Assembly (NCBI GenBank): GCA_009908505.1
Contig: JAAAPD010000016.1
Coordinates: 1-64,000, forward strand
Direction of reading: 5' to 3'
Source: Alphaproteobacteria bacterium
GTDB taxonomy: Bacteria > Pseudomonadota > Alphaproteobacteria > Rhodobacterales > Rhodobacteraceae
Length of the DNA stretch: 64,000 nt
Part shown: positions 1 to 12,516 of the stretch, piece after piece
How positions within the stretch are numbered: position 1 is the first letter of the stretch
Layout of the letters: every line of letters begins with the position of its first letter
Made by a program: the position numbers and the translations under genes
The notes under the pieces: generated by a model
Database searches by the model: none
Told to the model about the DNA's origin: nothing
What the model saw: the letters and a program-made list of their open reading frames with translations, nothing else

Positions 1-1140
1 TTTGTGGCAGATGAACAGCTGCCGGATATCCTTAGGCGACAACTCCGCAAGCAACTGGTTCACCAGGTCGGCATCGGGGTGGTCGGTGGCCCGCAACGTG
101 TAGAAATAGCCCGGATGATCGCTGTCGATGCGCGGCCACGGCCCGCCATCCTCGGCCCAGCGCACAAGGTCGGACAGGCCGTGCCATTCGCCCGGCAACT
201 GGCCGTGATAGCGTCGGGCCAACCGCCGCAGGTCGCGCCGCGTGGCACCGGTCAGGTCCTCGCCCATGCCCGACGCCACGTCGGCCACGATGAAATCCAT
301 CTTCTGGCGCAGGATCGCGGCGGCATCTATGCCGCGCGCCTGGACGATGGGTTCGGCAAGGTCGTTGAGTTGCAGGAACTTCGCGATCGCCGCCCGTTCA
401 CCCTGCTCGAAAACGAACGGGATGGGCAGGCTCTCGCGCCAGTCCGCCGGGCCCATGGCAATGGCCGCCGGGTGATCCACGCCGCGAAACACGTAGAGCC
501 CGCCGAAATGCGCGGTCCAGAAATTCTCCTGCACAAAGCTCATCTGGCGCAGCGACAGCGGATTGCGGGTGATATCACCGGTCTTCTTCGCAAGGCCGAT
601 CATCTGCGCGATGAGCACGTCGTCATGCCAGGCCTCGTTTTCAGTCCTGAACCGGTCGATCAACCCTTTCAACGCGCCCGCCGTGGCCACCGCGCCATCG
701 GTCGTGTCCGCCTCGACCGTCAGCGTGCGGATATCGAACAGCCGCTGCGGCGTATCCAGCGCGAAAACCGAATTGACCAACTCCCCGGCCACCGCGTCGC
801 GCGCCGTCAGCGCGAAAAGCTCGCGCTCGTTCGCCTCGATGAATTGCCGCAGGATCCCCCGCGACATGGAAAACGTTGCGTCCAGAAGCGGCGCGGTCTT
901 CTGTTCGGTGGTCAGCAGGATGAACTGTCGGTTCACGCCCTCGTGGTTCAGGTAGAACCGGTCACCCAACTCATCGGCCACCTCAGGGCTTTGCCCGGCG
1001 ATGTCGATATGAAACTCGCTCAGCGCGGTCACCTTGCCCGTCAGCGCCTTCAGCGCCCGGTTATACCGCTCCACCAGCACCGGCGAGGTGACGGGGATCA
1101 GGTTGCCGAACATGAGGCCCTTTTCGATGAGGCGATTCAT
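1..1140 (-). CDS. Uncharacterised protein, 3' end outside window
   Basis: 380 codons are open from an ATG to the window edge with no stop, so the C-terminus is missing. The protein looks soluble, with mixed helix and strand character and no signal peptide or membrane segment. A Cys-x-His pair lies right at the visible end. I recognise no characterised family. It is the last visible member of a tight minus-strand gene set and starts 34 bases after the preceding small membrane-protein gene, so it is probably co-transcribed with the AAA ATPase upstream. Function unknown; a role alongside the ATPase is inference from operon position only. Confidence 0.82.
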   Translation of the reverse strand, partial: MNRLIEKGLMFGNLIPVTSPVLVERYNRALKALTGKVTALSEFHIDIAGQSPEVADELGDRFYLNHEGVNRQFILLTTEQKTAPLLDATFSMSRGILRQFIEANERELFALTARDAVAGELVNSVFALDTPQRLFDIRTLTVEADTTDGAVATAGALKGLIDRFRTENEAWHDDVLIAQMIGLAKKTGDITRNPLSLRQMSFVQENFWTAHFGGLYVFRGVDHPAAIAMGPADWRESLPIPFVFEQGERAAIAKFLQLNDLAEPIVQARGIDAAAILRQKMDFIVADVASGMGEDLTGATRRDLRRLARRYHGQLPGEWHGLSDLVRWAEDGGPWPRIDSDHPGYFYTLRATDHPDADLVNQLLAELSPKDIRQLFICHK

Positions 1141-1174
1141 CGGGGCCGCGCCTCGGAGAGCATCGTCAACCCCA

Positions 1175-1519
1175 TCACCAAACCTCCTCCTTCCAGCGTT
1201 TCGGCAGGCTGGCCACCGCCAGCAGCATGATCGGCCCCCACAGCAACGACGAGACCAGCCCAAGCCTGAGGAAATGCAGCAGGAATGCACCCCAGCCATC
1301 CTGCATCAGCGCCGCCCAGTTGATCCCCTGTGCCAGATAGAGCACCGTAAAGAACACGATCCCCAGCGCCAGCATGATCAGCGTTGAACAGAGCGCCAGA
1401 AGGATCAGCGGCTTCACCCCCTCGGGGAAGACGTGGAACAGCAACCGCGGCACGGCCCAGCCCATCGCCGTCAGCACCAAAGCTGGCAGGATCAGGTCGA
1501 GCGTCAGCCCCCCGGTCAT
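1175..1519 (-). CDS. Small membrane protein of ATPase operon (114 aa)
   Basis: A 114-residue hydrophobic protein with about three predicted membrane segments (roughly residues 7-29, 37-64 and 76-105) and a basic C-terminus (PKRWKEEVW). The start is fixed by a 4-bp ATGA overlap with the stop of the preceding gene, a sign of translational coupling. No family recognised. Together with the preceding 103-aa protein it may form a membrane anchor or channel for the cytosolic ATPase encoded just upstream; that is inferred from gene order alone. Confidence 0.8.
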   Translation of the reverse strand: MTGGLTLDLILPALVLTAMGWAVPRLLFHVFPEGVKPLILLALCSTLIMLALGIVFFTVLYLAQGINWAALMQDGWGAFLLHFLRLGLVSSLLWGPIMLLAVASLPKRWKEEVW

Positions 1520-1827
1520 TCGTCCCGTCCCGTGCGAGCGACCATGACCGACAAGGCGATGGCGGCCGCCGCGAACCCGATCATGATCAACAGGTTGGCC
1601 GGCTTGGTCTGCGCCGGAACATTCTCGGGCGCCGCCGTCGCCCCCCAGATCGCCACACCGAAGCGCGCGCCGACCAGCATGAACAGGCCCCAGACCAGCG
1701 GTATCGCCAGGATGCCCAACAGCATGCCCAATGCACCGCCGATCCGCGTCCAGATCAGGGGAACCACGATCACCACGACCAGGCCCGCCGCGACGGTCAG
1801 AAGGGTATAGACGATCGCCGCACTCAT
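1516..1827 (-). CDS. Small membrane protein of ATPase operon (103 aa)
   Basis: A 103-residue protein with three hydrophobic stretches (about residues 3-26, 31-57 and 78-97) separated by short loops; the loop before the last one is Pro/Glu-rich (APENVPAQ). The ATG overlaps the stop of the ATPase gene by 4 bases and its own stop overlaps the next start by 4 bases, so the three genes look translationally coupled. No known family recognised. Probably an inner-membrane partner of the ATPase. Confidence 0.8.
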   Translation of the reverse strand: MSAAIVYTLLTVAAGLVVVIVVPLIWTRIGGALGMLLGILAIPLVWGLFMLVGARFGVAIWGATAAPENVPAQTKPANLLIMIGFAAAAIALSVMVARTGRDE

Positions 1828-3758
1828 TCCCGGCCCTCCAGGTAGCGCCGCTTTGCTTCTTCCTGCCGGGCATAGTCGCGCACCATGTTCGAAATCGCCA
1901 CCTCGTCGGACTTGTCGGCATATCGGAATTCGCTGTCCGCGTAGCGGTTGATTTCCTGGATCACCATCTCGATGGTGATCGGCTGTCGCAGTTCGGAAAT
2001 CATCGCCTTCTTGGTCTCGTAATCCTTCCAGACGAAAAGCTCGGGGTTTTCCATCCACTCGTCGGGCAGTTCGAAATCCATCGCGCGGACCTTGACGGCG
2101 TCGGTAATGTTCTTGATCGCCCGGCCCGTGAACCGTTCGTCCGCCTTCTGGATGCCCTTGAGGTAGGTGCCCAGCTTGGCAATCGTGTCCAGTTCGCCGA
2201 TCTCGGACCGAACCCGCTCGTAAACCTGCAGCAGCCCCTCTTCCTTGGGGCGGTTGTGGCTGTCGAAACTGGCCGCAACGGCCTTCTTGATTTCCTGCGC
2301 GGCAAAGACGTCATGTTCGCCAACCGGGATGTCATGGTTTCGACCCATCAGCAGGTAGAGGATGTCGATGTAATCCTCGCGCGTCTGCGGCCCGTCGACA
2401 AGGAACCGCGCCCCGGCGCGCTGGCGCAGCGCGTCGTCGACGTTCTCGGGGTAGTTCGAGAACATGCCGAAGGTGCAGTTTCCGCGCACCACGGTATTGG
2501 CCCCTGCAAACGCCTCCATGAAGACCGCCGTGACCTCCTGCTGGCCGGCGCTGGATTGCCGGTCGCCGCGCTTGCCCGCGATCTGGTCGATATCGTCGAT
2601 CGTGCCGAAACCGATCACGCCCGGTTCGATCACGTTGTTGATGAAGGCACGGGCGTTCTGGCCCGACTTGCCCTGGTAGCTGTCGATATTGTCGATGCCG
2701 AAATTCTGATAGCGAAAAGTGTATCCCGCCGCCGCGCAGTAGTCGTTGATGAGCCCCGCCATCATCTGGATCAGCGTGGTCTTGCCCGTGCCGGGCGCGC
2801 CGTCGCCCATAAAGGTGAAGATGAAGCCGCCCAGTTCGGCGAAGGGGTTCAGGCGCCGGTCGAAATCATAGGCCATGAGCATCTTGGAAAGCTTCAGCGC
2901 CTGGTATTTCGCGATATGGTTGCCCACGACCTCGTTCGGCGTCTTGAAGGTCATGGTCAGGGTCTGTGCCTTCGCGGCCCGCGCCGGGGTGAAGCCGCGC
3001 AGGGTCAGGTCATCGGCCTCGACCTTCCATGTCGCCCCCTCGAACGGGCCCAGGCGCGCGGCGGTCGAAGCCCGCGCCGCGACCTTCGCCATCAGCTGTT
3101 CGGCAAAGGCAAGCACGGTGGGCACCAGCCGCTCTTCACTCGTTGCGAAGGCCCCGATGTCCTGGTCCAACTCCCAAAGCGCGCCGTGCAGGGCCAGCTG
3201 TGCATTGTCGGTCAGCACTTCCTCGACCTCGCCGATCTCGACGCTGTCCTCCGTGGCGTGCGGCGCGATCAGGAACGCGGTCGCATTGGCAAAGCAATGG
3301 GCCACGACCAGCGCCTCCGCCGTAAGCAACTCGCCGAACTCGGCCTTCTTGCCCGCGGGCAGCGACCCTTCGAGATTGGCACGCTTCAGGTCGGCCAGGC
3401 CGGTCCGGTCGGCATATTGTTCCCCCATGGCCAGCGCGATGGCCAGGGCCCGGCGCAGCCCGTGCAGCACCGTGGCCTGGATGGGCGAGATCAACGCGTC
3501 GCCACCGTCGCTTTCCTCGATCCGCACCACCAGTTGCACGCCCTCGCTACGCACCTGCCTTCGCGTGACCAGACCCGGGGTCGTGGACCGGAACGCGCGG
3601 CGGGTGCCGAGTCCGCTGGACCGTTCTTTTGGCGCGGCCTCTTTCGGCAAACCGATCCGGGGCACATGGTCAAAGCCCTGCAACATCGCCGTCGCAGCCT
3701 CGTAGTGCTTGACGATGTCCTCTTCTCGAAGCTCCATCTGGTCGGCTGTCTGGCTCAT
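1824..3758 (-). CDS. AAA-type ATPase, 644 aa, unknown system
   Basis: The C-terminal half is a clear AAA ATPase: Walker A GDGAPGTGKTT (residues 318-328), Walker B GTIDDID (385-391), a sensor-1-like Asn in MFSNYP near 435, and an arginine-rich LRQRAGAR near 445-452 in the arginine-finger position. The first 290 residues or so are mostly helical and match no domain I recognise. No membrane segments. The gene sits in the middle of a minus-strand set with four small or coiled-coil partners and overlaps the next gene by 4 bp. ATP-driven remodelling of a membrane-associated complex is plausible, but substrate and pathway are unknown. It is not a MoxR, ClpX or FtsH ortholog by motif context. Confidence 0.88.
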   Translation of the reverse strand: MSQTADQMELREEDIVKHYEAATAMLQGFDHVPRIGLPKEAAPKERSSGLGTRRAFRSTTPGLVTRRQVRSEGVQLVVRIEESDGGDALISPIQATVLHGLRRALAIALAMGEQYADRTGLADLKRANLEGSLPAGKKAEFGELLTAEALVVAHCFANATAFLIAPHATEDSVEIGEVEEVLTDNAQLALHGALWELDQDIGAFATSEERLVPTVLAFAEQLMAKVAARASTAARLGPFEGATWKVEADDLTLRGFTPARAAKAQTLTMTFKTPNEVVGNHIAKYQALKLSKMLMAYDFDRRLNPFAELGGFIFTFMGDGAPGTGKTTLIQMMAGLINDYCAAAGYTFRYQNFGIDNIDSYQGKSGQNARAFINNVIEPGVIGFGTIDDIDQIAGKRGDRQSSAGQQEVTAVFMEAFAGANTVVRGNCTFGMFSNYPENVDDALRQRAGARFLVDGPQTREDYIDILYLLMGRNHDIPVGEHDVFAAQEIKKAVAASFDSHNRPKEEGLLQVYERVRSEIGELDTIAKLGTYLKGIQKADERFTGRAIKNITDAVKVRAMDFELPDEWMENPELFVWKDYETKKAMISELRQPITIEMVIQEINRYADSEFRYADKSDEVAISNMVRDYARQEEAKRRYLEGRE

Positions 3759-3780
3759 CTCATACCTTTCTGCGGGACGA

Positions 3781-3800
3781 CCAAAATTCCAGAATTTTGG
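3781..3800. repeat. Palindromic AATTC-CA-GAATT element, copy 1
   Basis: A 20-base inverted repeat: nine-base arms CCAAAATTC and GAATTTTGG around a CA loop. It lies in the 48-base gap between the 369-aa protein gene and the ATPase gene, just upstream of the latter's start. Two further intergenic palindromes with the same core occur at 8642-8665 and 23039-23060. It could be a hairpin that modulates expression within the operon, or a small dispersed repeat. Confidence 0.6.
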
Positions 3801-3806
3801 TCCGCC

Positions 3807-4916
3807 TCAACGATAACTCAAAACACGTCCGGCCGGGCTAACCACGAATTTGCGCACCTCGCGAAACCCCGGCGGGTTGCGGTCCTCCAGAGCCTGGTAG
3901 GGCCGCTGCGGCAGGATGATCGCCCGTTCCATCCGCGTCGCCCCGGTATCCGCCCCCTGCCCGGCGAACGGGTCCAGCGCGAAGACCTGCCGTTCCACCG
4001 ACCGGAACCAGCCCGACTTTTCGCGTTCCGCCCGGTCGCTTACCAGCTCTTCCTCGGTCCAGACCAGCGCCCAATCCTCGCCCTCGGGCGCCTCGGCCAG
4101 CTCCAGAACCTCGCGCAGCGGACCGGCCTGCCGGGTGAAGGCATTCGAATACATCGGCCCCACATGGAACCGGCGCAACCGCTTGGGGTGCAGATCGTCG
4201 AAATCCTGGTCGAAGCCCCTGGCGATGGTCAGCAGCTTCAGATGTGCCAGGGCCTGCGCCATCAGGTGCGCCTGGGCCTCGGGCCAGCGGCGGTCGTCCT
4301 TGGGCAGGCCGGTGCGACCCGTATCCTCGACCTCCATCAGGTAAATGGTGGGCAGGTTGATCTGGCTGTCATAGACCGCCCAATGGACCAGGAACCGGCG
4401 GCGATCCTCGTCATTGCCCAGCCAGATCGCCTGCGGATCGTTGCGGGCCCAGAACAAATCGCCCCGCGCGAGTTCCTGGTAATAGAGCCGTTGGGACAGC
4501 GCGTATTGCAACTTGGTCGGGATCTCGCGGTCGCGCAGGATGACGCGTACCATTTCGTCTTTCAGTTGCTCTGTGCTGCGCATGCCCGCAAGGTGACGAT
4601 CGGCCTGGGCGGCGTCGTTGGCCATGGTCATCAGTTCGGTGGCAACGGGAAACCCGCTTTCGACCCGGTCGAATGTCAGCTTGCCGGCATGGGCGAAACG
4701 GCCCGAGAACTGGTATTTGTGGGCCAAGGCTCGAAAGGTGAAGGTCAAAGCGGTCAGGTAGCGCGCCAGCACCTCGACTTCGCGTTTCGATAGCCGCCCC
4801 TCGACCTCCATGTTCGCCGCCACCCGCGCCAGATGCCCGGTGATCCGTTCGAACTTGTCGAAATAGCGCCGAGTGACGCGGGTGTCCTCAAGCTGGAAAT
4901 GGTCGGAGGAGGTCAT
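3807..4916 (-). CDS. Uncharacterised 369-aa protein of ATPase operon
   Basis: A soluble, helix-rich protein with many charged residues (for example VILRDREIPTK and WLGNDEDRRRF) and no signal peptide. I chose the internal ATG because it has a GGAAGAG ribosome site just upstream and overlaps the stop of the preceding small membrane gene by 4 bases; the longer open frame would overlap that gene much further. The gap to the ATPase gene is 48 bases and contains a palindrome. No family recognised. Likely a cytosolic partner of the ATPase; function unknown. Confidence 0.8.
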   Translation of the reverse strand: MTSSDHFQLEDTRVTRRYFDKFERITGHLARVAANMEVEGRLSKREVEVLARYLTALTFTFRALAHKYQFSGRFAHAGKLTFDRVESGFPVATELMTMANDAAQADRHLAGMRSTEQLKDEMVRVILRDREIPTKLQYALSQRLYYQELARGDLFWARNDPQAIWLGNDEDRRRFLVHWAVYDSQINLPTIYLMEVEDTGRTGLPKDDRRWPEAQAHLMAQALAHLKLLTIARGFDQDFDDLHPKRLRRFHVGPMYSNAFTRQAGPLREVLELAEAPEGEDWALVWTEEELVSDRAEREKSGWFRSVERQVFALDPFAGQGADTGATRMERAIILPQRPYQALEDRNPPGFREVRKFVVSPAGRVLSYR

Positions 4917-5152
4917 CGTCTCTTCCACGGAAATGGTCCGAGGAACCGTTCGACGCGGATGGCCCATAGCGTCGCGCGGGGCACGAACCGGCCAAGAAAG
5001 AACAGGAGCACGTCGAGCCCGGCCACGATCTGCGCGAGCATGAATACCGCGACCGCAGACGACCCGTATCCGGCGACGAAACCGGCAAACGCCAAAGCCA
5101 AACCGGCGAACTGAACCGCGTCCCGACGCTTGAAGGTCACGTTGCCGGTCAT
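4913..5152 (-). CDS. Small membrane protein of ATPase operon (79 aa)
   Basis: A 79-residue protein with a short basic N-terminus (TFKRRD), two hydrophobic segments (about residues 12-30 and 32-54) and a basic, aromatic tail (FPWKRR). It starts 40 bases after the coiled-coil gene and overlaps the 369-aa gene by 4 bases. No family recognised. With the two other small membrane proteins of this set it suggests that the system works at the inner membrane. Confidence 0.75.
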   Translation of the reverse strand: MTGNVTFKRRDAVQFAGLALAFAGFVAGYGSSAVAVFMLAQIVAGLDVLLFFLGRFVPRATLWAIRVERFLGPFPWKRR

Positions 5153-5192
5153 CGACTCCGCCCCGCCCTTGTCGCCTTCGCCGCCGACAAGA

Positions 5193-6269
5193 TCAGGCCC
5201 CATACAGGTTCTTGTCGTGCTTCTCGACGATCTTCTGGAACCGCCGGACGAACCGTTCGTCTGCCTTTGCCTTCTGTTCCAGCACCTCGCGGGCAAAGAC
5301 CATGTGGTCCTCGTGCGCCTCCAGCATGTCGGCCATCCGGGCATTGGTGGCGCCGCCGATTGCGGCCATGGCCGTCTGGGCCTCTTCATCCGTCTTCACG
5401 CCGATCTCGTTGATGCGGTGGGCCACGTCCTGTTGCTGCGCGGTCTTCAACGACTTGGTCAGCGCATCGTAAAGCACCACGCGCTGCTTGGTGTCGGTCT
5501 GCAGCTTGTTGATGAGGACCATCTGCGTCGCCGCCTGGTTCTGCAGGCTGTCGATCCAGGTCTTGCCCTTCTCGATATAGCGTTCCAGTGTCTGGCTCTT
5601 GGCCAGCTTCACCTGTTCCGACTGCACCAGCTCGTTGTATTTCGCGTTCAACTCGGCCAGCTCGGTTTCCAGCTTGGTGCGGGCGGCGGCATCCTGTTCG
5701 ACGCTTATCTTGTTTTCCAGCTCGATGATCTTTGGGTCCATCGCCAGGATCTCGGCCCGCGCGGCCTCGAGTTCTCCCACCACCGCTTCGCGCTCGTCCA
5801 GCGTCACCGACAGGTTGCCCTCGACCTTGTCCTTCTGTTCGTTCAGCACGGCCAGCTGACCCTCCAGCAGGCCCGTGATCACGTCGGACTTGGAAATCAG
5901 GTCCTGCAGCTTGTCATCCACGCTGGCGGTGCGCATCCGTTCCTGGCGCATCGATTCGGCCTTGCCCTTGGAAAAGAAGCCCACGACGGTTTCCCAGCCG
6001 GTCTTGGACCGCATCTCGTCGAAATTCTTTTGGAAACCGGCGGTGACATCATCCAGCCCCATGATGAGCTCCGCGATATTCGCGTTCATCGCCTCGGTAT
6101 GGGCGTGGACATCTTCCAGTGTCGCATTTTCGATATCGACTGCGATATCCTCGCCGCTTTCCATCTTCTGGCGCGCGGTTTCGATGCGGCTGGTCAGTTC
6201 CTGGATCTTCGCCTGCGCGTCCTGAACCTGGGTCTGCGACTCGCGAATCTGGGCATCGAAATCGGCCAT
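5193..6269 (-). CDS. Long coiled-coil protein, first gene of ATPase operon
   Basis: 358 residues, almost entirely helical with heptad-like spacing and high Glu, Lys, Gln and Ala content; no signal peptide or membrane segment. Only a short stretch around residues 90-115 (GFFSKGKAESMRQ) breaks the helix. A GAGG ribosome site precedes the ATG. The segment with ATQMVLINKLQTDTK vaguely recalls TelA/KlaA-type toxic-anion-resistance proteins, but I cannot establish homology by eye. It begins the minus-strand set and probably carries its promoter in the 147-base gap upstream. A scaffold or filament partner for the ATPase is a reasonable guess. Confidence 0.82.
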   Translation of the reverse strand: MADFDAQIRESQTQVQDAQAKIQELTSRIETARQKMESGEDIAVDIENATLEDVHAHTEAMNANIAELIMGLDDVTAGFQKNFDEMRSKTGWETVVGFFSKGKAESMRQERMRTASVDDKLQDLISKSDVITGLLEGQLAVLNEQKDKVEGNLSVTLDEREAVVGELEAARAEILAMDPKIIELENKISVEQDAAARTKLETELAELNAKYNELVQSEQVKLAKSQTLERYIEKGKTWIDSLQNQAATQMVLINKLQTDTKQRVVLYDALTKSLKTAQQQDVAHRINEIGVKTDEEAQTAMAAIGGATNARMADMLEAHEDHMVFAREVLEQKAKADERFVRRFQKIVEKHDKNLYGA

Positions 6270-6416
6270 CTGGAATCCTCACTGTTTCAACTTTCTGAAC
6301 TTGTATGGGCGATGTTAATGGCATTTTCACGACCCGTGTAGCGGGAAATGGCCGCGCAAAATGCCCCGATGCACGCCCGAGGATGGCGGCCAGACGCGGC
6401 TCGCGCCGTCCGACGG

Positions 6417-7265
6417 TCAGGCGTCGCCCGTCGTCTCGTCGGCTTCCGCCCCGGCAATGGCATCCGGCGCAGCCTCTTCGCCCGCGTCGTCGTCGGAATC
6501 GGTGCTTTCGTCCTCGGCGTCAACGTCGGTCGCGCCGTAGATGGATTCCGGGTCGATGATCGTCGGTGGCAACTCGACACCGCGATTGGCAAGCGCCTCG
6601 CCCTCGGCGGCCACGCTTTCCTCGTAAGTGCGCACGGTGACGCGGGCGCCCCGCTCAACCCGTTCGTAAAGGTCGATGATGTCGTGGTTGAACAGACGGA
6701 TGCACCCCGCCGACCCGGAATTCCCGATCGAAGGCAGGTCATTGGTGCCGTGAATCCGGAAAAAGGTATCGCGCCCGTTCTGGTAGAGATACAGCGCCCG
6801 GGCCCCCAACGGGCTGGCCAGCCCGCCATCCACACCGTCAGCGAAGGGGCCATAGACCTCGGGCTGGGTGCGCAGCATGTTCGCGGTGGGCATCCAGCCG
6901 GGCCATTCGCGTTTCATGCCGACGGTCGAATCCTCGCGCATGCTCAATCCGGCCCGGCCCACGGCGATGGGATAGCGCACCGCCGCGCCGTCCTCTTCGA
7001 CGAAATAGAGGAATTTCGCATGGGGATCGACGATGATCGTGCCGGGCTCTTCGGGGCCGTCATGGACAACAGGCATGCGGCGATTCACGCCCTGCAGGTA
7101 TTCCGGCGGCACGGGCGGCAGGGTGTATTCGCCGTCTTCGACCACACCGTAATCCGTCACGATCTCGTCCACCGGCACTCCGCCGATCATTTCGGGGTCG
7201 CGCGCGCAGCCCAAAAGGGCCATCAGCGAAATGAGCGGGATCGAGACACGAAGGATGGGGCGCAT
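6417..7265 (-). CDS. L,D-transpeptidase lipoprotein (YkuD family)
   Basis: Predicted 282-aa lipoprotein: signal peptide ending in lipobox LLGC at about residues 16-19. The catalytic YkuD signature is present as HGTN followed by SAGCIRL, giving the His and the active Cys. The family cross-links peptidoglycan stem peptides, or attaches protein to them, in the periplasm. The roughly 40-residue C-terminal tail is extremely acidic (DAEDESTDSDDDAGEE) and likely disordered. The start was chosen for the signal peptide; the open frame extends 18 codons further upstream. Monocistronic between the ATPase set and creatinase. Confidence 0.9.
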   Translation of the reverse strand: MRPILRVSIPLISLMALLGCARDPEMIGGVPVDEIVTDYGVVEDGEYTLPPVPPEYLQGVNRRMPVVHDGPEEPGTIIVDPHAKFLYFVEEDGAAVRYPIAVGRAGLSMREDSTVGMKREWPGWMPTANMLRTQPEVYGPFADGVDGGLASPLGARALYLYQNGRDTFFRIHGTNDLPSIGNSGSAGCIRLFNHDIIDLYERVERGARVTVRTYEESVAAEGEALANRGVELPPTIIDPESIYGATDVDAEDESTDSDDDAGEEAAPDAIAGAEADETTGDA

Positions 7266-7331
7266 TGGTTGTTCCTTTATCAGTCGGCGGCAGACTAGCA
7301 GCCCCCGACTACATGGCAATCCCGGTCCGGC

Positions 7332-8534
7332 CTAGCCGACCACGTTGAAGTCCGGTCCGTAGGGAAAGCCGGTGATGTTCTCGTTGCCGTCCTCGGTGAT
7401 GACAAGGATATCGTGTTCACGATATCCGCCGGCGCCGGGCTGGCCCTCGGGGATGGTGAGCATCGGTTCCATCGAGATCACCATGCCCGGTTCAAGAACC
7501 GTGTCGATATCCTCGCGCAGTTCCAGGCCCGCCTCGCGCCCGTAGTAATGCGACAATACGCCGAAGGAATGGCCATAGCCGAAGGTGCGATATTGCAACA
7601 GGTCTCGATCCGCGAAGAAGTCGTTGATCTTCTCGGTGATGGCGGCACAGCTGACCCCGGGCTTCAGCAGGGACATGCCATATTCATGGGCCGCGACATT
7701 GGCCTCCCAGATCTTCAGGCTGGCCGGATTCACCGCGCCCATGAACATCGTCCGTTCAAGCGCGGTGTAATAGCCCGAGATCATCGGGAAGGTATTGAGG
7801 CTCAGGATATCCCCGCGCTGAACCTGGCGGGCCGTCACTGGGTTATGGGCGCCGTCGGTGTTGATGCCCGACTGGAACCAGACCCAGGTGTCGCGATATT
7901 CGGCGTCGGGAAACCGGGCGGCGATTTCAAGCTCCATCGCGTCGCGCCCCGCCATGGCGATGTCGATTTCCCGTGCGCCTTCGCGCACCGCGTCGCGGAT
8001 CGCGTAGCCACCCACATCGGCCACGTTGGCCCCGGCTCGAATCAGCGCGATCTCGGCCTCGGACTTGCGCATGCGCTGCGCCATGGTCGCGGATGCGATA
8101 TCGAGCGTCACGGCCGGTTCCAGGAAATCCTCCAGCAGGTCGCGCTGCAGCAGCGTCAGGTGGTCCGCCTCGATCCCGATCACGGCCCCGACGCCGGTGA
8201 CGGACCTGATCGCCCGCCAGTAGTTGTTCCGCTGCCAGTCGGTATAGGTGATGCTGTCCCCGAAGGACCGCCGCCAGGGTTGGGCGGCGTCGATCCCGGC
8301 GCTGATGGTCACGCAATCGGTCTCGGTCACGACCAGGCCATAGGGCCGTCCGAACGCGCAGTAGAGAAAACCCGAGTAGTAGGCGATGTTGTGCATCGAG
8401 GTGAATACGCAGGCTGTCATGCCGTTGTCTTCCATCGCGGCACGCAGATCGGCAAGCCGCGCTTCGTATTCCGAGGCCTCGAACGGCAACACCCGGTCAC
8501 CTTGATGAAAACGGTAGTAGTCAGGACGGTCCAT
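7332..8534 (-). CDS. Creatinase (creatine amidinohydrolase)
   Basis: 400 residues with the pita-bread (M24-like) fold of creatinase, which hydrolyses creatine to sarcosine and urea. From memory it matches Pseudomonas creatinase almost end to end: FLYCAFGRPYGLVVT, WFQSGINTDGAHNPVT with the catalytic His (His230), TALERT (Glu260), the FGYGHSFG and SHYYGREAGLELRED stretch, SMEPM and GGYREHDI. Family length is about 403, so it is complete. This is creatinase rather than a metal-dependent Xaa-Pro peptidase. No creatininase, sarcosine oxidase or urease gene is in this window. It diverges from the DUF418 gene across a 212-base spacer. Confidence 0.9.
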   Translation of the reverse strand: MDRPDYYRFHQGDRVLPFEASEYEARLADLRAAMEDNGMTACVFTSMHNIAYYSGFLYCAFGRPYGLVVTETDCVTISAGIDAAQPWRRSFGDSITYTDWQRNNYWRAIRSVTGVGAVIGIEADHLTLLQRDLLEDFLEPAVTLDIASATMAQRMRKSEAEIALIRAGANVADVGGYAIRDAVREGAREIDIAMAGRDAMELEIAARFPDAEYRDTWVWFQSGINTDGAHNPVTARQVQRGDILSLNTFPMISGYYTALERTMFMGAVNPASLKIWEANVAAHEYGMSLLKPGVSCAAITEKINDFFADRDLLQYRTFGYGHSFGVLSHYYGREAGLELREDIDTVLEPGMVISMEPMLTIPEGQPGAGGYREHDILVITEDGNENITGFPYGPDFNVVG

Positions 8535-8641
8535 GTTCGGCCCCCTTCGTCAAAAGAGGTCCCGGCGTTCAGGACGGACAAGCGCAGGAATTGGGGGCGA
8601 CGCCATCGCGCCCCGCGCAGGTCTCTCCTTAGGCAGACAGG

Positions 8642-8665
8642 CAACGAAATTCCAGAATTTTGTTG
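8642..8665. repeat. Palindromic AATTC-CA-GAATT element, copy 2
   Basis: Inverted repeat with 11-base arms (CAACGAAATTC and GAATTTTGTTG, one mismatch that would be a G-U pair in RNA) around a CA loop. It lies in the divergent spacer between creatinase and the DUF418 gene and shares its core with the palindromes at 3781-3800 and 23039-23060. In this divergent position it could not be a simple terminator for either neighbour. Confidence 0.6.
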
Positions 8666-8746
8666 CCGCCCGGTCTCAACTGCGGTGCAGTGTGATTGGC
8701 GGGCCAGAGGTCGGCATTTCACTTTTCGCCAGTTATAAGGCCATCC

Positions 8747-9865
8747 ATGTCCGACCGCCGCCGCGCCCTCATGCCCGATTACCTGCGCCTCGTGGCGCTG
8801 TTCGGCATCGTCGTGGTCAACGTGCAATACATGGCCTTCTCCTCGCTGCACGGGTTTGCCGATCCGGGCGGCGTTTCCCCCGCGGACGCCGTGACGCTCT
8901 GGCTGGTCAACGGGCTTGCCACGCTAAAGACCTACGGCCTGTTTTCCTTCATGTTTGGGGTCGGGCTGGGCTTTTTGATGCGATCGGCAGAACGGCGCGG
9001 ACTGGCCTTCGGCCGCGTCTATCGCAACCGCATGCTCGGCCTGCTGATCCTGGGCATCGCTCATGGCTGCCTGTTCTTTCCCGGGGACATCCTTGTCATT
9101 TACGCGGTGACCGGCGCGATCCTTTATCGCTTTCGAAACTGGCCGGCGGGCCGGCTTGTGCGCGTCGGCGCGGCGCTTCTGCTGGTGCAGGTGGTGCTCG
9201 CCCCGCCCATCCTTCTGTCGATCCCGGACGCGCCGGCCGACATGATCGCCCTCGAACGCGAGATCATGACCCATGGCGGGTTCGCGGAGGCGGTGCTGTT
9301 CCGGGTCATCGGCTTCGCCTTTACCCTGCCCGCCTTCCTGGTCGTCCAGGGCACCGCCGCGCTGGGGTGGTTCTGGCTGGGATTGGCGGCGGTGAAATCG
9401 GGTATGATCGACAACGCGGCGCATCCGCTTTGGCGGCGGGCGCGCCGCTGGTGCCTCGGCCCCGGTATCGTTCTCAGCCTCGGCGCCGCCGCGGCCTGGC
9501 AATGGGGGCCGGGCGTTGCGGGCGCCGCCCTGGCCATAGCGGTCGCGCCGGTCGCAACCCTCGGCTACCTCGGCCTGATCGCCACCGTCGCCCGCCCGCC
9601 GGGCCCGATCCTGTCCCGCGCCCTCGCGGCGGGCGGATCGAGCCTGACTATCTATCTGGGCCAGTCCATCCTGCTGTCGACCATATTCGCGGGCTATGGT
9701 CTGGGGCTATGGGGCGCGGTCGACCGGACCACCGCGACGGGCATCGCCATTGTCGTCACCATCGCCCTGATCGGCCTGGTCGCGGTCTGGCGCATGCGCT
9801 TTGCCCTTGGACCCTTCGAATGGGTCTTGCGGCGGATCACCTATGCCGGCCAGCCAAAGGCCTGA
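8747..9865 (+). CDS. DUF418 (YeiB-type) membrane protein
   Basis: 372 residues, polytopic with about eight to ten membrane segments. The N-terminus has the family pattern of a first helix starting RLVALFGIVVVN followed by a Phe-rich loop and a second helix with FSFMFGVGLGF; the conserved DUF418 region lies at the C-terminus (SLTIYLGQSILLSTIF and GPFEWVLR). The ATG was chosen because an AAGG ribosome site lies seven bases upstream. Substrate unknown; the family includes inner-membrane proteins of suspected transport or acyl-transfer function. Stands alone. Confidence 0.85.
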   Translation: MSDRRRALMPDYLRLVALFGIVVVNVQYMAFSSLHGFADPGGVSPADAVTLWLVNGLATLKTYGLFSFMFGVGLGFLMRSAERRGLAFGRVYRNRMLGLLILGIAHGCLFFPGDILVIYAVTGAILYRFRNWPAGRLVRVGAALLLVQVVLAPPILLSIPDAPADMIALEREIMTHGGFAEAVLFRVIGFAFTLPAFLVVQGTAALGWFWLGLAAVKSGMIDNAAHPLWRRARRWCLGPGIVLSLGAAAAWQWGPGVAGAALAIAVAPVATLGYLGLIATVARPPGPILSRALAAGGSSLTIYLGQSILLSTIFAGYGLGLWGAVDRTTATGIAIVVTIALIGLVAVWRMRFALGPFEWVLRRITYAGQPKA

Positions 9866-9969
9866 CAGGGCACGGGCACGGATGGCTGGTCATTGGCGGG
9901 CTGATGCCGCAAAGTGCCGGGCATGAGCGATAGCGCCACGGCAACCAACGGCCCCGGGGGCCACGCCCG

Positions 9970-10950
9970 ATGACAGCGGGGGCACGCAACTTGATAACGG
10001 ATGTGGCCGGGCTGCGGGTGGGAAACGCCCAGGATAACCGATTGAAATCCGGCGTCACGGTCCTGACCGCCGACACCCCCTTCACCGCCGGCGTGGCCAT
10101 CATGGGCGGCGCGCCCGGCACCCGTGAAAGCGACCTTCTGGCCCCCGACAAGACGGTCGAGCAGATCGATGCGCTGGTGCTGGCGGGCGGCTCCGCGTTC
10201 GGCCTGGCCGCTGCCGATGGCGTGATGGCCGGTCTGCGGGCCACGGGCCGCGGCTTTGCCGTCGGCCCGCACCGGGTGCCGATCGTGCCCGCCGCGATCC
10301 TGTTCGACCTGATGGCGGGGGGTGATCACGACTGGCAGGAGAACCCCTACCCGGCCCTGGGGCGCACCGCCCTGAATGCCGCCGCACCGACCTTCACACT
10401 GGGCAGCATGGGCGCGGGCACCGGGTGCACCACGGCGACTTATAAGGGCGGGCTCGGCTCGGCCTCGCAGGCGCTGGAAACGGGGCATACCGTCGGGGCG
10501 CTGGTCGCGGTCAACGCGCTCGGAAGCGCCACGGTCGGGGACGGCCGGCATTTCTGGGCCGCCCCGTTCGAGCAGGACCGCGAATTCGGCGGGCTAGGCC
10601 CGGCCTCCGACTATCCGCCTGCGCCCCTTACCAAGCTCGATGCGCCGCGCAACACGACCATCGCCATCGTCGCCACCGACGCCACCCTGACCCAGGCTCA
10701 GTGCACGCGCCTTGCCACCGCCGCCCATGACGGCATGGCCCGCGCGCTGGTGCCCGCCCATACCCCCATGGATGGCGACCTGGTCTTTGCCGCCGCGACC
10801 GGGGCACGGCCGCTGTCCGACCCGGTCGGCGATACGCTCGCCCTCGGACATGCCGCCGCCACCTGCCTGGCCCGCGCCATCGCGCGGGGTGTGCACGCCG
10901 CCACGCCCGGCCGGGGCGATACGCACCCCTGCTGGGTCAGCGGCGCCTGA
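9970..10950 (+). CDS. P1-family peptidase / amide hydrolase (DmpA-NylC type)
   Basis: 326 residues resembling the autoprocessing Ntn-type P1 family (DmpA, NylC): glycine-rich GGSAFGLAAADG near residues 73-84, SMGAGTGCTT near 146-155, then VNALGSATVGDG near 181-192, where Ser186 is the likely nucleophile exposed by self-cleavage. Members hydrolyse N-terminal residues or short amides; the actual substrate cannot be told from sequence. It precedes gabD by 96 bases on the same strand, which hints at a shared role in amide or amino-acid catabolism but does not show it. Confidence 0.8.
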   Translation: MTAGARNLITDVAGLRVGNAQDNRLKSGVTVLTADTPFTAGVAIMGGAPGTRESDLLAPDKTVEQIDALVLAGGSAFGLAAADGVMAGLRATGRGFAVGPHRVPIVPAAILFDLMAGGDHDWQENPYPALGRTALNAAAPTFTLGSMGAGTGCTTATYKGGLGSASQALETGHTVGALVAVNALGSATVGDGRHFWAAPFEQDREFGGLGPASDYPPAPLTKLDAPRNTTIAIVATDATLTQAQCTRLATAAHDGMARALVPAHTPMDGDLVFAAATGARPLSDPVGDTLALGHAAATCLARAIARGVHAATPGRGDTHPCWVSGA

Positions 10951-11046
10951 ACATTCGATAAGTCCAGATCGGCACCCGGCTTGGCGCCGGCGCCGCAAGA
11001 CGATACGTCTTCGATCAACGTACACCGCATATTGGAGGGCCAGGGC

Positions 11047-12516
11047 ATGACCGGCACAACGCAACTCAAGGACATTCTTTCGCGTCCGGACCTTGTCCTC
11101 GAACAGGCCTATGTCGCCGGCGAATGGGTCGATGCCGAGGACTGCAAGACCTTCGGCGTGATCAACCCCGCAAGGGGCGACGTGATCGCGCAGGTCGCGG
11201 ACCTGTCCCGCGCCGAGGTCGCGAACGCCATCGAGAAAGCCGAGGAAAGCCGCAACGCCTGGGCGGCCCGTACCGCCAAGGACCGGGCACAGGTGCTGCG
11301 CCGCTGGTTCGACCTGCTGATGGAAAACCAAGAGGACCTGGCCCGCATCATGACCGCCGAACAGGGCAAGCCCCTGGCAGAGGCACGCGGCGAGGTGGCT
11401 TACGGCGCGTCGTTCATCGAATGGTTCGGCGAAGAGGCCAAGCGGCTTTATGGCGAAACCATCCCCGGTCACCAGCCCGACAAGCGCATCACCGTGATCC
11501 GTCAGCCCATCGGTGTCTGCGCCTCGATCACGCCGTGGAATTTCCCCAACGCCATGATCGCCCGCAAGGTCGGGCCGGCGCTGGCCGCCGGCTGCGCCAT
11601 GGTGGCGCGTCCAGCCTCGCAGACCCCGCTTTCGGCGCTGGCTATGGCCAAGCTGGCCGACGAGGCCGGCGTGCCGCCCGGCGTGTTCTCCGTCGTGACC
11701 AGCGATGATGCGTCGGGCATCGGCAAGGAATTCTGCGAGAACCCGCTGGTGCGCAAGCTGACCTTCACCGGATCCACCCAGGTGGGCCGCATCCTGCTGC
11801 GCCAGGCGGCCGATCAGGTCATGAAATGTTCGATGGAGCTTGGCGGCAATGCGCCCTTCATCGTTTTCGACGACGCGGACCTGGATGCGGCCGTTGCCGG
11901 CGCAATCGCCTGCAAGTTCCGCAACAACGGTCAGACCTGCGTTTGCGCCAACCGCATCTACGTCCAGGACGGGATCTACGACGCCTTTTCCGCCAAGCTG
12001 AAAGAGGCGGTCGAGGCGCTCAGGGTCGGCGACGGTCTGGAAGAGGGCGTGGACCTTGGCCCGCTGATCGAACCCGCGGCCGTCGAAAAGGTCCGCGACC
12101 ACCTGAAGGATGCGCTGGCCAAGGGCGGGTCGGTCCTGACCGGCGGCAAGGCCATCGAGGGGCTGTTCTTCGAGCCGACCATCGTCTGTGACGCGACCCC
12201 CGACATGAAGGTCGCCACCGATGAAACATTCGGTCCCTTTGCTCCGTTGTTCCGGTTCACCGACGAGGACGAGGTGATCGCCATGGCCAATGACACGATC
12301 TTCGGGCTGGCCTCATACTTCTATGCCAAGGACATCTCGCGGGTCTACAAGGTGGCCGAGGCCCTGGAATACGGGATCGTCGGGATCAATACCGGCATCA
12401 TCTCGACCGAGGTGGCGCCCTTCGGCGGGGTCAAGCAATCGGGTCTGGGCAGCGAAGGGTCGTCCCACGGAATCGACGAATTCACCGAGATGAAATACAT
12501 GTGCCTCGGCGTGTAG
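11047..12516 (+). CDS. gabD: Succinate-semialdehyde dehydrogenase
   Basis: 489 residues aligning by eye with E. coli GabD end to end, from ITPWNFPNAMIARK through NNGQTCVCANR (catalytic Cys298), ELGGNAP (general base Glu264) and EALEYGIVGINTG to KYMCLG. Oxidises succinate semialdehyde to succinate with NAD(P), feeding the TCA cycle from GABA or related compounds. The ATG was set by a GGAGGG ribosome site eight bases upstream. One odd point: the usual cofactor-site KPA is RPA (Arg188), and the following VVTG is VVTS. Probably active, but cofactor preference could differ. Confidence 0.92.
   Translation: MTGTTQLKDILSRPDLVLEQAYVAGEWVDAEDCKTFGVINPARGDVIAQVADLSRAEVANAIEKAEESRNAWAARTAKDRAQVLRRWFDLLMENQEDLARIMTAEQGKPLAEARGEVAYGASFIEWFGEEAKRLYGETIPGHQPDKRITVIRQPIGVCASITPWNFPNAMIARKVGPALAAGCAMVARPASQTPLSALAMAKLADEAGVPPGVFSVVTSDDASGIGKEFCENPLVRKLTFTGSTQVGRILLRQAADQVMKCSMELGGNAPFIVFDDADLDAAVAGAIACKFRNNGQTCVCANRIYVQDGIYDAFSAKLKEAVEALRVGDGLEEGVDLGPLIEPAAVEKVRDHLKDALAKGGSVLTGGKAIEGLFFEPTIVCDATPDMKVATDETFGPFAPLFRFTDEDEVIAMANDTIFGLASYFYAKDISRVYKVAEALEYGIVGINTGIISTEVAPFGGVKQSGLGSEGSSHGIDEFTEMKYMCLGV

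Follow-up and report, generated by a model that had tools for sequence, protein, structure and literature searches.

Do the seven minus-strand genes that open this stretch of DNA, packed around an AAA ATPase, encode a system of their own, and what might such a system do? The window (the whole stretch analysed, 64,000 nucleotides) lies on contig C49 of a 2.99 Mb draft assembly (genome G000) and begins at base 1 of that contig. A reading made from the sequence alone had treated the seven genes as one unit and proposed an ATP-driven membrane-associated machine. We found that four of them form a single genetic unit. They encode the proteins called here CC, SOL, AAA and DUF6638 and, as a rule, follow one another within one operon as CC-SOL-AAA-DUF6638. 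The conserved system around the ATPase was thus recovered, but its core is smaller than seven genes, and the three small membrane proteins proved replaceable. All seven reading frames are present, reading from position 6269 down to the edge, and are listed below with a putative regulatory element.

5193-6269, minus strand: CC, 358 amino acids, first core gene, probably helical (reading frame and relatives)
4913-5152, minus strand: 79-amino-acid protein with two transmembrane segments, in the variable slot between CC and SOL, non-core
3807-4916, minus strand: SOL, soluble core protein of 369 amino acids (AlphaFold2 model, mean predicted local distance difference test score, pLDDT, 91.2)
1824-3758, minus strand: AAA ATPase, 644 amino acids, core, AAA domain at about residues 297-484
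1516-1827, minus strand: 103-amino-acid membrane protein, in the variable slot between AAA and DUF6638
1175-1519, minus strand: 114-amino-acid membrane protein (TM114), in the same slot between AAA and DUF6638
1-1140, minus strand: DUF6638 (Pfam PF20343), core gene, cut by the contig end
6308-6331, minus strand: operator-like element built as a dyad of ATGTNAAT-type half-sites; it lies 38 bases ahead of the start of CC and scores 14.4

The co-occurrence of the core genes was assayed by profile search, because a simple gene caller missed true genes, including the window's own AAA. The sample comprised 61 genomes (the window's own and 60 relatives), 37 of which belong to the window's family. AAA, DUF6638, CC and SOL were each detected in 20 of the 61, and these were the same 20 genomes, all within the 37 family members. 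The soluble partners therefore do accompany the ATPase, as the sequence-only reading had expected. Across the class, AAA and DUF6638 (above its cut-off) marked the same 7 of 385 genomes; an eighth held only a short DUF6638-like fragment below the cut-off. DUF6638 was present in 20 of 299 genomes of the phylum, and the four core genes stood side by side in all 14 loci fetched from the class and phylum DUF6638 searches. Among 72,556 plasmid-collection records, AAA, SOL and DUF6638 marked the same 10 (Sinorhizobium, Rhizobium, Shinella, Vibrio), and CC was found in those 10 and in one more.

The operon extends beyond the window's seven genes. The end of DUF6638 (the last 29 profile positions, 411-439) was recovered from another contig of this assembly, C26, where it lies at the contig end, followed by an 86-amino-acid protein with two hydrophobic segments (TM88) and then by a DUF1523 protein (225 amino acids; PF07509, 194 bits). 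Two conserved membrane proteins are thus encoded past the window edge. In most hosts seen, the quartet is followed by a two-transmembrane protein and DUF1523, the latter being replaced by DUF2333 in annotated or scanned Rhizobiaceae. A scan of species genomes provided 80 named loci, from hosts including Ruegeria, Leisingera, Sulfitobacter, Roseibium, Stappia, Aestuariispira and Halomonas. The order CC-SOL-AAA-DUF6638-TM88-DUF1523 on one strand was observed in 65 of them, and 5 more lacked TM88 and were otherwise complete. The other 10 had fewer than five of the six genes, or missed a gene other than TM88: seven are near a contig edge or contain runs of N (L098, L104, L110, L117, L119, L134, L172), two are split operons (L097, L166) and one is L162. 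The quartet is found bare on Vibrio replicons of about 0.9 Mb (L220 6620-12168, L221 6619-12168), where its ATPase has 39% identity and an mfd gene lies next to it. Order and co-occurrence repeat across genomes, which goes beyond chance. Altogether, marine bacteria and their relatives keep or lose the quartet largely as a whole, and small membrane proteins usually accompany it.

Co-occurrence of this kind could come from linkage alone, in which case functionally unrelated genes would merely be travelling together in one operon. A record with CC and none of the other three genes (pSK03, described below), together with L162, where DUF6638 is missing nearby, would fit that explanation. Broken operons argue against it. 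In L097 and L166 no DUF6638 lies within 10 kb of AAA, and both genomes encode DUF6638 elsewhere. The L166 genome (G690) keeps CC-SOL-AAA together and DUF6638 at a separate place. In the L097 genome (G689), a metagenome-assembled genome (MAG), the genes occupy three places: CC-SOL; AAA; and a gene for a protein with three transmembrane segments together with DUF6638-TM88-DUF1523. With the operon split and all four genes present, the set has therefore been retained in both genomes without linkage. The converse was seen in G001, a sister species within the window's genus, where all four core genes are absent and TM114, TM88 and DUF1523 are still in place, between flanks colinear with those of G002 at about 80% identity. 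Because TM114 sits between AAA and DUF6638 in G002, the quartet was most simply lost as two separate pieces; core genes that are not adjacent are thus jointly absent while the gene between them remains. Moreover, the quartet recurs in another class (Halomonas, Vibrio). We consider it highly improbable that unrelated genes are merely travelling together.

The packing of the window genes was as the sequence-only reading had described it. Three pairs are coupled by 4-base overlaps (4913-4916, 1824-1827 and 1516-1519), and the remaining gaps are 40, 48 and 34 bases, all under 50. Some details had to be corrected. The ATPase had been taken for the only protein with a known domain; in Pfam, both the ATPase (PF00004, 46 bits against a cut-off of 21.2) and the edge-cut protein (DUF6638, 726 bits against a cut-off of 27) gave matches, and the other five proteins gave nothing above the curated cut-offs. 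The 114-amino-acid protein, assigned three transmembrane segments, displays four hydrophobic segments in a Kyte-Doolittle scan. NCBIfam and PADLOC returned weak, generic matches at most for the operon's proteins, and no strong match to a characterised system appeared in Pfam, NCBIfam or PADLOC; such a match was what the sequence-only reading had named as evidence against a new system. Rfam gave no match in positions 1-12000 of the window, and a sigma-70 scan of positions 1-7500 gave no site.

The gaps between core genes are of two kinds. In the 80 named loci, DUF6638, TM88 and DUF1523 are tightly packed (median gaps of 1 and 10 bases). The CC-SOL gap measures at least 140 bases in 42 of 76 cases and the AAA-DUF6638 gap at least 140 bases in 57 of 75. 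Counting also the SOL-AAA gap, the core gaps hold 105 sense open reading frames with a hydrophobic segment, falling into 70 blastp groups (single linkage, E 1e-4), a number that is an upper bound on families. Frames with at least two transmembrane segments numbered 82 on the sense strand and 1 on the antisense strand, against a mean of 0.6 in block shuffles. Pfam, run on 10 of the 105 proteins, gave nothing above cut-off. Larger slot genes also occur, encoding a 256-amino-acid two-transmembrane protein (L095) and a 209-amino-acid protein with five segments (L138), and L096 has a SOL-AAA gap of 1.6 kb. Among the loci searched, the 103-amino-acid protein occurred in the window and nowhere else. 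DUF1523 was detected in 31 of the 61 genomes, namely the 20 quartet carriers and 11 others, and in 4 of these 11 a relative of TM114 persists beside TM88-DUF1523. One genome (G007) has, besides the operon copy, a second DUF1523 gene on another contig (L202 8539-9255). The three small membrane proteins of the window are non-core and lineage-specific, and can be absent or replaced.

Variable small membrane proteins are a pattern also seen among the effectors of defence systems. An anti-phage or conflict system, with conserved cytosolic sensor and motor proteins and swappable small membrane proteins as membrane-damaging effectors, would account for the two variable slots, with their roughly 70 sequence groups, and for the patchy presence of the quartet (20 of the 37 family members). 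Several results speak against this. The best PADLOC match of the ATPase was a generic AAA entry (E 0.00064), and the core proteins are very conserved. No relatives of AAA or CC were detected in 50,697 phage records (E 1e-5), and none of AAA in viral contigs. The flanks are common to carriers and non-carriers, and the five window flank genes tested are metabolic or envelope genes. The first of these (6417-7319) encodes an L,D-transpeptidase (YkuD, PF03734) and lies directly upstream of CC, in the same orientation. Of 25 core-bearing loci compared, 6 have a member of its blastp group immediately before CC, and another such gene stands beside the core-free site in G001. The four others encode two peptidase-family proteins, a DUF418 protein and an aldehyde dehydrogenase. 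We regard a conflict system as quite unlikely.

Of the four core proteins, the ATPase is the easiest to place. Walker A, sensor 1 and the arginine-finger positions are present by profile and alignment. When aligned to solved fidgetin-like proteins, the pore-loop Trp-Val-Gly corresponds to Y361-Q362-G363, the Walker B Asp-Glu to D388-D389, the sensor-1 Asn to N435 and three Arg to R445, R447 and R451. These nine residues correspond to positions in the core of an AAA translocase and are strictly invariant in 86 sequences, including one from Vibrio and four from rhizobia. The Walker B motif is thus Asp-Asp in all 86, a change that is family-wide. Because the Glu position is Asp, the profile files the protein just as a divergent AAA protein; slow ATP turnover would be predicted from this replacement. 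Pfam found no known domain in the N-terminal 290 residues.

Within the window's family, no core protein is more conserved than CC: mean column identity was 84% for CC (17 loci), 80% for AAA, 69% for SOL and 66% for DUF6638. It contains one proline in 358 residues and is therefore probably helical. Conservation peaks at residues 241-270, and the C-terminal tail carries the invariant residues H351 and Y356. Profile searches for solved relatives of CC, SOL and DUF6638 returned none that was convincing. An assignment of CC to TelA (PF05816) was also considered and rejected, with no TelA match at E <= 1 and an hhalign probability of 0.3-0.4%.

SOL and DUF6638 were modelled with AlphaFold2, DUF6638 from a complete copy (L156, mean pLDDT 85.8). 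Foldseek found no match to either model in the PDB at E <= 0.001. A second-look structure comparison, whose lists do not exclude any family, gave nothing above Z 3.8 for DUF6638. For SOL residues 170-332 it returned many T-fold enzymes, weakly (Z <= 4.9): urate oxidases (Z 4.9, root-mean-square deviation 3.8, 120 residues aligned), dihydroneopterin aldolases (Z 4.3), and GTP cyclohydrolase and QueF-like proteins. Residues 172-301 are predicted in the order strand-strand-helix-helix-strand-strand, with an extra helix before the last strand, which would be compatible with a T-fold. Such a likeness can serve as a lead only. It brings in an activase or enzyme-maturation system, in which the AAA ring would reactivate a client enzyme or load it with cofactor, and SOL would be a divergent T-fold binding a purine- or pterin-like ligand. 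Both the second-look matches and the predicted secondary-structure order favour it, but every SOL score is below Z 5, inside the tool's stated background, and Foldseek, as said, gave nothing at its threshold. No client enzyme was identified beside the operon, where the recurring flank genes were not examined as possible clients, and such a system would leave the small membrane proteins unexplained. An activase thus appears doubtful. Against viral models, the best Foldseek match of SOL (E 0.0068, TM-scores of about 0.1) was taken as noise. SOL and DUF6638 were also compared as possible paralogues, which was rejected (hhalign 0.4% and 0.2%).

The last 28 residues of DUF6638 are poorly defined in the L156 model (pLDDT <50). 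This tail carries a GPWG motif in 50 of 55 rows of the alignment; a wider set of 80 rows has it in 70, and L064 and L101 carry it twice. The ten rows without it are the edge-cut window copy, L134 (near a contig edge) and eight from outside the Rhodobacteraceae. The GPWG tail looks like a docking peptide of Rhodobacteraceae and their close relatives.

The operon also appears to have its own control element. A dyad near GATGTAAAT-N3-ATTTACATC was recovered in most Rhodobacteraceae loci, mostly 32-40 bases before CC. A mixture model placed it in 55-61 of 92 upstream regions, varying with the seed; the model was built from the same regions it recovers, and the 92 include close relatives. The window copy scores 14.4, compared with 23.5 for the best loci, -1.2 in the sister genome G002 and 9.3 in G003. 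The 80 named loci, 1.65 Mb in all, gave 55 matches over 12, and 54 of these were the CC site; because the model was trained on those loci, only its scarcity elsewhere is informative. Around DUF1523 loci that lack the quartet, 210 kb contained no match over 9. About 800 kb of G012 was also scanned, and just two tandem sites, located before a DUF2852-RDD gene pair, exceeded 11. These tandem palindromes lie at L278 19869-19953, and the pair encodes small proteins with hydrophobic segments. CtrA, LexA, RpoH, EcfG and RpoE-type patterns were sought in 73 upstream regions, and none was frequent (<= 5 of 73). A literature query pairing the operator letters with Rhodobacter showed no occurrence among the matches listed. 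For S. meliloti, one paper lists a fragment inside SMc02733 as bound by ChvI; it carries no weight here.

What, then, would the four proteins do? We infer a four-protein ATP-driven machine, usually working at the inner membrane, a reading held tentatively and with a confidence just short of even. The membrane association in the sequence-only proposal is suggested by operon context, and the conserved ATPase system behind it is observed. A remodelling machine fits best because one locus brings together an AAA ring whose pore loop is aromatic, a well-conserved helical partner, a pair of dedicated soluble partners and surrounding membrane proteins. The ATPase would form a ring that pulls on or disassembles CC, with the conserved C-terminal tail of CC as the likely handle. 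SOL and DUF6638 would be dedicated adaptors, DUF6638 docking in Rhodobacteraceae through its putative GPWG peptide. TM88 and DUF1523 would tether the machine to the inner membrane, and the small membrane proteins of the two variable slots may set its client or location. The predicted outcome is that a structure of the inner membrane or the envelope is remodelled or maintained.

A number of observations weigh against this machine, or against parts of it. CC had been called a coiled coil, but its heptad pattern is not convincing and its heptad power is ordinary: values as high were reached in 88 of 500 shuffles of the whole protein and in 19 of 500 for residues 240-358. TM88 stands beside DUF1523 in 8 of the 11 quartet-free genomes, and because the pair persists there, it has an additional role. 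Rhizobium leguminosarum plasmid pSK03 (L241 8794-11148) carries a diverged CC, 27% identical to the window's, directly before DUF2333; its neighbourhood matches that of a Sinorhizobium meliloti record. In the pSK03 record no SOL or DUF6638 was detected at E 1e-10 and no AAA at E 1e-20. CC thus has no strict requirement for the other three, and in this case it may act with a membrane protein alone. In L162 (also a MAG, 6314-11030), CC-SOL-AAA is present and the next 4.7 kb contain neither DUF6638 nor TM88 nor DUF1523; the Vibrio quartet has no TM88- or DUF1523-family gene within about 9 kb. GPWG is missing from complete DUF6638 proteins of Aestuariispira, Halomonas (2), Vibrio and rhizobia (4), and also from that of L056. 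No operator-like element precedes CC in the Halomonas, rhizobial, Aestuariispira and Vibrio loci scanned. Finally, the L,D-transpeptidase upstream and DUF1523 or DUF2333 downstream give a weak link to the envelope, and these neighbours are the only envelope hints.

A unit shared by Rhodobacteraceae, Roseibium, Stappia, rhizobia, Halomonas and Vibrio replicons would represent an undescribed cellular machine. The open-access literature searched, with subscription journals and preprints outside that search, held no paper on DUF6638 and no described system with this gene set; DUF1523 and DUF2333 turned up there, in the portions of text available, as passing mentions. The ATPase represents a divergent branch within a family already known, and the families of CC, SOL and DUF6638 have no known function. 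It is therefore the system, and not the ATPase, that we rate as new. One genus holds close relatives with and without the quartet, which makes it suited to genetics, and the variable slots are natural swaps.

Set against known systems, the ATPase shares with the fidgetin, katanin and Vps4-type AAA proteins, and with the ATPase domain of the i-AAA protease, its Walker A motif, sensor-1 Asn, arginines and aromatic-x-Gly pore loop. It differs from these classical ATPases by the Walker B Asp of its family, by an N-terminal part without known domain and by partners from unrelated families. DUF6638 (PF20343), DUF1523 (PF07509) and DUF2333 (PF10095) are direct family matches to families of unknown function. 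TelA, the toxic anion resistance family, resembles CC as a long, probably helical cytosolic protein of similar length, but shows no detectable relationship to it, and the window genome holds a separate TelA gene. A further parallel is ESCRT-III with Vps4. CC has no sequence link to any solved chain and is known here from its sequence alone, but the two arrangements are alike in combining, in a membrane context, an AAA ring with a helical protein that is itself conserved and has a conserved tail at its C-terminus. Taken to its full extent, the likeness would make the quartet a new bacterial membrane remodeller, unlikely in our estimation, in which the AAA ring would dismantle helical CC through its C-terminal tail, helped by two dedicated adaptors whose fold is so far unseen, by interchangeable small membrane proteins that select the target and by an operator of its own: a functional analogue of Vps4/ESCRT-III without sequence kinship.

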